This document shows positions 20,256 to 22,093 of a stretch of 64,000 nt of DNA, piece after piece. The notes beneath the pieces were generated by a model. It saw only the letters and a program-made list of their open reading frames with translations, searched no databases and was not told the DNA's origin. This DNA is from Rhodobacter sp. CZR27 (lineage in GTDB: Bacteria > Pseudomonadota > Alphaproteobacteria > Rhodobacterales > Rhodobacteraceae): NCBI RefSeq assembly GCF_002407205.1, contig NZ_CP023548.1, forward strand, positions 396,501 to 460,500, given 5' to 3'. Each line of letters begins with the position of its first letter. Positions within the stretch are counted from its first letter, which is position 1. A program made the translations under genes and the position numbers.

Positions 20256-20624
20256 ATGGCCAACATCACCTTCTCGTCGCCGATCATGCACGAGGACCTC
20301 ACCGTCTATGCGGTTGCGGGCGATACCAAGACGATCCTGGCGGTTGCCGAGGAGCACAAGGTTCCGATCCCGTTCGAGTGCAAGGATGGCAACTGCGCCT
20401 CATGCCTGATCGAGGTGACCTACAAGGATCCCTCGATGCGCAAGGGCATCGACCTGACCGAGAAGGAGAAGGCCAAGCTGAAGGAACTGGGCAGGATCAC
20501 CGCGAAGGAGATCGAGGATGCCGAAGTGCTCGACCTGCCGCCGCGCTATCGCCTCGCCTGCCAGTTCATCGCCCGCGACGAGGACGTGACCGTGGCCTTC
20601 ACCGGCGCCCCCGGCGGCGCCTGA
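20256..20624 (+). CDS. 2Fe-2S ferredoxin
   Basis: A 122-aa plant-type ferredoxin. Cluster ligands are in C-x4-C-x2-C (ECKDGNCASC, about residues 41-50) plus a distant Cys in LACQF near residue 104. The spacing to the last Cys is longer than in plant ferredoxins because of an inserted lysine-rich segment (EKEKAKLKELG), a feature I associate with the FdxD-like ferredoxins of purple bacteria, though that link is a recollection of the family and not proven here. Start ATG 20256 follows AGAGGGACAAG. Single gene between the bzt terminator and the creatinase leader; electron partner unknown. Confidence 0.88.
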   Translation: MANITFSSPIMHEDLTVYAVAGDTKTILAVAEEHKVPIPFECKDGNCASCLIEVTYKDPSMRKGIDLTEKEKAKLKELGRITAKEIEDAEVLDLPPRYRLACQFIARDEDVTVAFTGAPGGA

Positions 20625-20696
20625 GACCGTCCCGAGAGCCGCGACGCGTTCTGCCGCTTGACAGAAGGCCGGCCGCGAGGGAATGAAATGACAACG

Positions 20697-20718
20697 CCCG
20701 CGCCCTTCGGGGTGCGGG
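20697..20718 (+). terminator. UUCG-capped hairpin after the ferredoxin gene
   Basis: A 9-bp stem with one G-T pair (CCCGCGCCC with GGGGTGCGG-G) is closed by an extra-stable C(TTCG)G tetraloop. There is no T run behind it. It may end the ferredoxin message or form the 5' part of the creatinase leader: a perfect TTGACA lies just upstream at 20658-20663, although no good -10 accompanies it. Confidence 0.5.
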
Positions 20719-20733
20719 TCTGCCGGGCAGAAC

Positions 20734-20887
20734 CCGGACATGGAACAGCGCACGCGGCGATGGCGTCGACGCGAGGAGGGGGCGACCCCTCCGGTGCTTG
20801 CGGGGGGTCAGCCTCCCGTGTCCGTCCTGTACGCCGGGACTCTTTCGGGGTCCCCTTCCACGCGGACCCCTTGTGATGAGGTCCGAT
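20734..20887 (+). promoter_or_regulatory. structured leader with mutually exclusive hairpins before creatinase
   Basis: A closing stem CGGACA (20735-20740)/TGTCCG (20819-20824) encloses a GNRA-capped perfect hairpin (GGAGGGG-GCGA-CCCCTCC, 20775-20792) and a GGGGGG/CCTCCC hairpin (20802-20817). Downstream, three stems compete: GGGAC/GTCCC (20837-20854 region), GGGGTCC (20847-20853)/GGACCCC (20864-20870), and CGGACC (20863-20868)/GGTCCG (20880-20885). The last stem buries the AGG before the creatinase ATG (20888). This is the layout of an aptamer plus a translational switch; no known riboswitch consensus was recognised, and GC-rich DNA yields chance stems. Confidence 0.4.
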
Positions 20888-22093
20888 ATGGAACGTCCCG
20901 AAAACTACCGCTGCCACAACGGCCAGAAGGCCGCGCTGCCCTTCGCCGTAGAGGAATACGAGGCGCGGCTTGCCGGCCTGCGCGACCTGATGGAGCTGCA
21001 CGCGCTCGACGCCGTGGTGCTCACCTCGATGCACAACGTGGCCTATTACTCGGGCTTCCTCTACTGCTCGTTCGGACGGCCCTATGCCTGCGTGGTGACG
21101 CCCACCGACTGCGTGACCGTTTCCGCGGGCATCGACGCCGGCCAGCCGTGGCGGAGGAGCGCGGGGGACAACATCACCTACACCGACTGGCAGCGCGACA
21201 ACTTCTGGCGCACGGTCGCAGGTGTCACCGGCACCGGCAAGGCCATCGGCTGCGAGGCCGATCACCTGACCATGGTGCAGGCCGAGAAGCTCAACGTCTT
21301 CCTCAAGCCCTCGCGCGGCATGGACATCGCCCCCGGCACCATGGCGCAGCGCATGCTCAAGTCGCCCGCCGAGATCGCCCTGATCCGGCAGGGCGCACAG
21401 GTGGCCGATGTCGGCGGCTACGCCATCCGCGACGCGGTGAAGGTCGGCGCGACCGAGATCGAGATCGCCATCGCCGGCCGCGACGCGATGGAGCGCGAGA
21501 TCGCCAGGCGCTTCCCCGAGGCCGAGTATCGCGACACCTGGGTCTGGTTCCAGTCGGGCCTGAACACCGACGGCGCGCACAACCCGGTGACGAACCGCGC
21601 GCTTCAGCGCGGCGACATCCTCTCGCTCAACTGCTTCCCGATGATCTCGGGCTATTACACCGCGCTGGAACGCACGCTTTTCGTCGGTGAGGTGGACCCG
21701 GCCAGCCTGAAGATCTGGGAGGCCAACGTCGCCGCCCATGAATACGGCATGAGCCTCCTGAAGCCGGGCGCCTCCTGCGCCGAGATCACCGCGAAGATCA
21801 ACACCCTCTTCGCCGAGCGCGACCTGCTGCAATACCGGACCTTCGGCTATGGCCACTCGTTCGGCGTGCTCTCGCACTACTACGGGCGCGAGGCGGGGCT
21901 GGAACTGCGCGAGGACATCGAGACGGTGCTGGAGCCGGGCATGGTGATCTCGATGGAGCCGATGCTGACGCTCACCGAGGGGCAGCCCGGGGCGGGCGGC
22001 TACCGCGAGCACGACATCCTGGTGATCACCGAGGACGGCAACGAGAACATCACGGGCTACCCCTACGGCCCGGGTTTCAACGTCGTCGGCTGA
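20888..22093 (+). CDS. creatinase (creatine amidinohydrolase)
   Basis: Hydrolyses creatine to sarcosine and urea (EC 3.5.3.3). The 401-aa product matches creatinase length (403 in Pseudomonas putida) and carries long stretches typical of it: FLYCSFGRPYA near residue 57, DAGQPWRR, WFQSGLNTDGAHNPVT with the catalytic His231, GYYTALERTLF and GAGGYREHDIL with acidic residues that bind the guanidinium group. The fold is the pita-bread/M24 aminopeptidase type without metal. ATG 20888 chosen over ATG 20876 because TGAGG lies eight bases before it. Neither creatininase nor sarcosine oxidase is next to it. Confidence 0.92.
   Translation: MERPENYRCHNGQKAALPFAVEEYEARLAGLRDLMELHALDAVVLTSMHNVAYYSGFLYCSFGRPYACVVTPTDCVTVSAGIDAGQPWRRSAGDNITYTDWQRDNFWRTVAGVTGTGKAIGCEADHLTMVQAEKLNVFLKPSRGMDIAPGTMAQRMLKSPAEIALIRQGAQVADVGGYAIRDAVKVGATEIEIAIAGRDAMEREIARRFPEAEYRDTWVWFQSGLNTDGAHNPVTNRALQRGDILSLNCFPMISGYYTALERTLFVGEVDPASLKIWEANVAAHEYGMSLLKPGASCAEITAKINTLFAERDLLQYRTFGYGHSFGVLSHYYGREAGLELREDIETVLEPGMVISMEPMLTLTEGQPGAGGYREHDILVITEDGNENITGYPYGPGFNVVG

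Follow-up and report, generated by a model that had tools for sequence, protein, structure and literature searches.

Does the DNA upstream of the creatinase gene of Rhodobacter sp. CZR27 encode an RNA that controls this gene, and if so, what might that RNA sense? The gene lies at 20888..22093 (401 aa plus stop) of the window, that is, the whole stretch of 64,000 nt analysed here (contig NZ_CP023548.1, positions 396,501 to 460,500); it and the leader features described below are on the forward strand. The best PDB matches of its product were three creatine amidinohydrolase sequences (7yto, 1chm, and 1kp0; E 9e-154 to 2e-152), and its Pfam domains were Peptidase_M24 and Creatinase_N. The leader spans the interval from the end of a ferredoxin-like frame (20624) to the creatinase start (20888). 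The leader is GC-rich. A sequence-only reading had proposed a riboswitch in it (20690-20890), and all of the sequence features that it quoted are present there, including a closing stem (CGGACA 20735-20740 / TGTCCG 20819-20824), a perfect GCGA-capped (GNRA) hairpin (20775-20792), and a second hairpin (20801-20818). The predicted fold of 20690-20900 had an energy of -111.1 kcal/mol; shuffled versions averaged -99.7 kcal/mol (sd 4.7), giving z -2.45, and 2 of 200 folded as well. Taken alone, this is weak evidence.

The conserved part of the leader was located by comparison among relatives. The creatinase protein was searched in 198 genomes of the family, 135 of which matched at E <= 1e-80 (139 matches), and the best 30 loci, the window's own included, were picked by protein similarity, independently of any motif. 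All 30 carried CGATGGCGTCG, a spacer, and then CCTGNACGCCNGG in the upstream leader (hereafter, the strict motif). In the window, the first part forms hairpin HP1 (20753..20773), whose stem (20753-20756/20770-20773 and 20758-20760/20766-20768) is interrupted by a G.A mismatch (20757/20769) seen directly in the sequence and whose conserved loop region is GAUGGCGUC (20759-20767), the motif shared by the 30 closest loci. The second part forms hairpin HP2 (GUCCUGNACGCCNGGAC, 20824..20840), in which a GUCC/GGAC stem (20824-20827/20837-20840) closes a loop with ACGCC (20831-20835). The spacer between them (20774..20823) contains the GNRA and second hairpins and is not conserved; the core-to-core spacing of HP1 and HP2 ranged from 21 to 67 nt (median 38) in 140 sequences. 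The leader holds structure above chance, but the sequence-only reading misplaced the aptamer: it pointed to the closing stem and the two hairpins within, and listed neither HP1 nor HP2. An exact 6-bp counterpart of the closing stem was found in 2 of 146 leaders, the two being of a single genus, against a shuffled mean of 1.54, and the stem was rejected on this count as the base of an aptamer; a perfect 6-bp GNRA hairpin occurred in the spacer of 1 of the 146. Exact duplicates were removed, and L143, L208-L211, and the model-search loci L151-L188 omitted, before these two counts and before the 140-sequence covariation, promoter, and second-platform counts given below. A multi-copy repeat element was rejected because the leader matches its own genome once.

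For covariation analysis, 100 chosen loci were searched and 102 matches were aligned, the alignment (A2) being fitted to the structure of the model. HP1 and HP2 comprised seven and four pairs, with 90.5 and 95.8% of cells paired and five and two pairs changed on both sides, respectively. The covariation score was 0.315; shuffles gave 0.134, and sliding gave no more than 0.098. The seven pairs with changes on both sides were reached by 24 of 500 shuffles. RNAalifold recovered both hairpins from this structure-fitted alignment, minus pair 4:24 and plus pairs 12:16 and 91:97 within the loops. In a tree-aware test, whose nulls were home-made, heavy-tailed imitations of R-scape and not R-scape itself, the top six of 1485 column pairs were all proposed pairs (E <0.005 for one, 0.06 for another, and >0.8 for the rest). 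Similarly, the top five of 1176 column pairs in the 140 gap-free, model-free sequences were proposed pairs, with two HP1 pairs at E <0.05 and the best HP2 pair at E 0.92. L256, a divergent member scoring 32.3 bits, has U-A in place of C-G at an HP2 pair that did not vary among the 102. Overall, covariation backs HP1 clearly and HP2 more weakly. The earlier proposal was staked on conserved or covarying stems upstream of creatinase orthologues, and the outcome favours an element there. Chance stems in GC-rich DNA would fit the composition of the leader and the unconserved closing stem and GNRA hairpin, and they have next to no probability as the explanation; for HP1 and HP2 this reading is already contradicted by conservation, covariation, and gene association, as well as by the scores within the window's own genome, where the leader reached 55.9 bits and the next place 23.5 bits (the window sequence being a member of the model). 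Matches in this genome at or below 23.5 bits were taken as chance.

The sequences GAUGGCGUC in HP1 and CC, G, ACGCC, and GG in HP2 were invariant in all 102 aligned members, an invariance that is partly by construction because some members were found by pattern or model. Within HP1, GGCGU (20762..20766) is the perfect complement of the ACGCC of HP2 (20831-20835), and the two loops may form a kissing pair. The two strands never vary and therefore carry no covariation support, so the kissing pair is a proposal, and the RNAalifold pairs 12:16 and 91:97 count against it. The conserved HP1/HP2 unit is, whichever ligand it may have, a well-supported structured RNA unmatched in Rfam 15.

The distribution of the motif was surveyed with a covariance model (R1), which matched 125 of the 198 family genomes at E <= 0.001, at 139 places. 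Among these places, 116 preceded a co-directional creatinase match, at a median distance of 54 nt; the distance was at most 125 nt in 115 cases, and the creatinase match of the exception (531 nt) begins at residue 135. With laxer filters, the motif was also present at three of the other 23 creatinase matches (G144, G079, and G089; 50.4, 37.3, and 32.3 bits, respectively), and a fourth was doubtful (G063, 22.6 bits). Five others at contig edges or in fragments were excluded from this check, and the motif was absent at the 14 remaining matches tested, which were mostly 46-59% identical, two of them (G014 and G029) at 64-65%. At a threshold of 1e-4, R1 matched 12 of 385 genomes of the class and 24 of 398 of the phylum, seven and five of which, respectively, belonged to other families. 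Of the 27 loci read in these searches, all but the weak L255 preceded creatinase. An exact-pattern scan of named genomes gave at least 119 stretches, and the matches listed upstream of creatinase added Granulosicoccus, a Granulosicoccaceae bacterium, Rhizobiales, Salaquimonas, Thalassospira, and SAR116; stretches without the trailing GG were dismissed as chance, many of them lying within genes of unrelated bacteria. When GG was required, the strict pattern occurred at 100 places among the matches listed (L001, the same place as L002, being excluded), of which 30 were the family loci, 90 were upstream of creatinase, and 61 had been taken into an earlier alignment. The other ten comprised a creatinase cut by a contig end (L132), five places before EamA-like genes (L038, L044, L051, the second of L103, and L138), two before amidinotransferase-like genes (L042 and L094), one before a beta-lactamase-family protein (the first of L103), and L143, which was dropped as chance. 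The counts from the named and unnamed collections are not additive because they overlap (L051 and L190, with the same sequence, are apparently one place). Taken together, the motif appears to occur in Rhodobacteraceae and to be scattered in other alpha- and gammaproteobacteria.

The genes at the 23 R1 places not counted as creatinase bear on the ligand. Seven were amidinotransferase-like (L192, L193, L196-L199, and L204) and eight were EamA-like (L190, L191, L200, L202, L203, and L205-L207); the motif also headed a Rieske-type gene (L195), an SDR gene followed by a beta-lactamase-like gene (L201), and two creatinases that were broken or cut (L189 and L194). The L193 protein was closest to human L-arginine:glycine amidinotransferase (E 3e-83), the L191 protein matched Pfam EamA, and the L103 protein matched Pfam Beta-lactamase and META; the remaining gene names were assigned by eye. 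By reading, no sugE/Gdx-type small exporter was found among these 23. A further match of 37 bits (L208:239-317, +), with an altered HP1 loop (GATGGCGGC) and an intact HP2, lies 329 nt before a CoxG-like gene, and L209, L210, and L211 (28.6, 27.6, and 26.7 bits), in which the HP2 loop was missing by eye, were taken as chance. At L103:656-734, the motif precedes the beta-lactamase/META protein and is followed by an EamA-like gene with its own motif, and at L201:3525-3605 it precedes the SDR gene and then a protein similar to that of L103. With few exceptions, the other genes under the motif concern guanidino compounds or transport; the Rieske-type, SDR with beta-lactamase-like, and CoxG-like genes are without evident creatine link. 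The presence of amidinotransferase-like and EamA-like genes strengthens both the riboswitch reading and the guess of a guanidino ligand made from the window sequence. The same RNA might instead be a riboswitch that responds to sarcosine, glycine, arginine, urea, guanidine, or a different guanidino acid. The enzyme that the L193 protein most resembles, L-arginine:glycine amidinotransferase, acts on arginine and glycine, and the EamA-like, Rieske-type, and SDR/beta-lactamase-like genes have unassigned substrates. We nevertheless consider another ligand unlikely, given that creatinase follows 116 of the 139 family matches and each further class or phylum locus read except the weak L255, and that an inducer would usually be the substrate.

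The position of the motif relative to possible promoters was examined with a simple consensus score. In 95 of 144 leaders, the end of the best promoter-like site fell 10-19 nt 5' of the HP1 core, compared with 12.9 in shuffles, so an RNA start at HP1 is probable in most such leaders. No such site was present at this distance in the window or in the sister leader L003, and the best site of the window leader by the same score was the weak TTGACA-N18-AATGAA (20658..20687). A transcript start downstream of 20824 had been named as fatal to the switch; the relatives speak, indirectly, for a start at HP1, and the window itself lacks this signal. Most relatives have a near palindrome close to where transcription is predicted to begin, as would also be expected if the inverted repeat CGATGGCGTCG, just 3' of the promoter, were the DNA operator of a transcription regulator. 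This is very improbable, since the outer arms differ in sequence yet stay complementary, a second conserved part, HP2, follows at varying distance, and the arms downstream link HP2 to the ribosome-binding site. The window also contains a strong hairpin without a U-run, CCCGCGCCC-UUCG-GGGUGCGGG (20697-20718), located between the ferredoxin-like gene and HP1; it is perhaps the end of the upstream transcript and lies outside the conserved element.

Downstream of the HP2 loop, the window contains four arms: a (20836..20842), the 3' arm of HP2 with the bases that follow; b (GGGGUCCC, 20847..20854), which could pair with a (OFF) or c (ON); c (CGGACCCC, 20863..20870), which could pair with b (ON) or d (OFF); and d (GAGGUCCG, 20878..20885), which holds the ribosome-binding GAGG and would be sequestered by c in the OFF form. 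The three mutually exclusive stems described by the sequence-only reading are indeed present, namely, a:b (20836-20842 with 20848-20854, seven pairs), b:c (20847-20853 with 20864-20870), and c:d (20863-20868 with 20880-20885, six pairs), the last adjoining GAGG (20878-20881). The stem a:b was read in the window, and the counts across relatives cover b:c and c:d in 35 hand-picked leaders of the window type (32 of 34 candidates, all but L126 and L253, plus L003, L015, and L073). A b:c run of six to seven pairs was found in 34 of the 35, with some compensatory changes; against shuffles of their own linker, 24 of the 35 were at or below 0.05 and the rest up to 0.31. A c:d run of at least four pairs was found in 32 of the 35, as a raw count without shuffle control.

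Other leaders use different arms. In a second platform type, the 3' arm of HP2 pairs directly with the Shine-Dalgarno stretch GGAGGGUC: among 28 leaders chosen by a GGAGG-TC pattern, 22 showed runs of 7-11 pairs (including L061, which is of the second and window types both), 20 were at or below 0.05 against shuffles, and the GACCUC/GAGGUC forms vary together. Of the six misfits, five belong to the GGGAUCUUGCUUUG group. A third arrangement was recognised by eye in nine amidinotransferase leaders, in which HP2 is mutually exclusive with a hairpin CUUUCAAUC-GGGA-GAUUGAAGG or a close variant of it; UCUCCC is able to pair with GGGAGA and also with the ribosome-binding region (GCCUCC/GGAGGC in L192, GCUCC/GGAGC in L199, and CUCUCC/GGAGAG in L042); L193 and L196 fit less well. 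One platform type (GGGAUCUUG) falls outside the switch scheme. In L062, L091, L229, L242, and L246, the platform GGGAUCUUGCUUUGYCG is accompanied by a long hairpin far from the start codon.

Because HP2 is exclusive with the stems that lead to hiding of the ribosome-binding site, the leader reads as a translational ON switch; on this reading, formation of HP2 would leave the ribosome-binding site free in each platform design. Forced folds of the window gave -71.7 (ON) and -71.1 kcal/mol (OFF), and the free minimum (-77.8 kcal/mol) contained a:b and c:d without HP1; HP1, HP2, and c:d together reached -76.5 kcal/mol, better than the ON fold. These energies are not decisive, so the switch is unproven by secondary structure, and folding order or tertiary and ligand energy would be needed. 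The translational switch proposed earlier is nonetheless well supported, the element being conserved, covarying, near the start codon, and joined to alternative stems. Two hallmarks of riboswitches were found, namely, a conserved structured 5'-leader element before functionally related genes and, as judged from sequence, an expression platform whose alternative structures are tied to a candidate aptamer.

We therefore favour, with a probability of roughly two in three, a cis-acting riboswitch of a class unmatched by Rfam 15, in which a small guanidino compound stabilises the HP1-HP2 loop-loop fold. Bound by a small molecule such as creatine, the leader RNA would probably switch on creatinase and other genes for guanidino compounds. 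For an ON switch that mostly precedes creatinase, creatine is the simplest ligand and guanidinoacetate the next, as we infer. In the ligand-bound form, HP2 would retain its GGGAC arm and b would pair with c, leaving the ribosome-binding site free for translation of creatinase. In the ligand-free form, GGGAC would leave HP2 and pair with b, and c would pair with the ribosome-binding region, turning translation off. Weighing against this reading are the G.A mismatch in HP1 of the window, the creatinase matches that lack the motif, the low energy of the fold that combines HP1, HP2, and c:d, the platform type outside the scheme, and the motif-headed genes without evident creatine link. The invariant loops and alternative stems are silent on what binds, and a protein or small RNA acting on the same conserved RNA and the same alternative stems would likewise make a translational switch. 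This seems quite unlikely, as unlinked genes in several orders would require a co-distributed binder and creatinase was the only constant neighbour found by ORF clustering of 67 loci, although neither argument is strong. Returning to the guanidino-sensing riboswitch, the odds appear evenly balanced that it is the first natural riboswitch for creatine (or guanidinoacetate), with a compact kissing-hairpin aptamer and several translational platforms, inducing creatinase, amidinotransferase, and carrier.

A creatine riboswitch was not found in open-access PMC text (partly the best matches only), a scope outside which most subscription papers, preprints, and supplements fall, and a term search for 'creatin' or 'guanidino' returned nothing from the main text of the ligand review PMC9971707. 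Searches with Rfam 15 returned no family at the gathering threshold across the window and none up to E 5 within 20600-20950. Guanidine families were absent from the matches up to E 10 at L006 and L019 and from those at gathering in the window and at 13 loci, as far as the Rfam copy contains guanidine models. A known Rfam family was rejected for want of a match. Guanidine-II (mini-ykkC) RNAs consist of two small hairpins with interacting loops, both of them ACGR. The leader resembles them in having two small hairpins and, as proposed here, interacting loops, but its loops are unlike each other (GAUGGCGUC and CUGNACGCC): ACGR in both loops was not found, the HP1 loop being GAUGGCGUC and the HP2 loop containing ACGC, and there was no Rfam match.

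The nearest known architecture appears to be that of guanidine-IV (GGAM-1 / mepA) and Gd4v, which have two hairpins, a loop-loop pseudoknot, and highly conserved loop nucleotides, turn genes on via an intrinsic terminator upon ligand binding, and precede sugE/Gdx, MATE, GNAT, or transaminase genes (PMC9788692, PMC7736828, PMC11611296). The leader would share with them two hairpins, conserved loops, ON control, and guanidino chemistry, as proposed from the sequence, and its loops are likewise complementary, yet invariant in 102/102. In contrast to their terminator, the platform here covers the ribosome-binding site: the stems end at that site, and no U-run followed HP2 or a:b in the window. The genes also differ, being creatinase, amidinotransferase-like, and EamA-like. 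On these published descriptions, the two are set apart by control mode and genes rather than by consensus alignment. The SAM/SAH riboswitch, a small pseudoknotted RNA of Rhodobacterales lying upstream of metK (PMC2864571, PMC7367207), differs in that creatinase instead of metK is downstream here and no Rfam match was found. The leader RNA is thus a candidate riboswitch class. If the reading is correct, it would represent a class for a ligand type unnamed in the main text of the ligand review (PMC9971707), and bacteria would sense an animal-associated metabolite directly by RNA. It would also suggest functions for EamA-like carriers and bacterial amidinotransferase-like enzymes, offer a creatine sensor, and provide a natural comparison with guanidine-IV on how loop-loop aptamers recognise the guanidino group.

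Two kinds of variation within the motif were also observed. The HP2 position after ACGCC (20836 in the window) was G in 73, C in 27, and A in 2 of the 102 members, with C in the EamA leaders read and G in the amidinotransferase leaders; this base could mark two ligand or platform subtypes. In the creatinase leader L217:1260-1430 (-), HP2 is intact and HP1 is replaced by a longer stem (CCGCGCCAC/GTGGCGCGG) whose large loop keeps GGGCGG, and this leader may carry a degenerate or variant aptamer.
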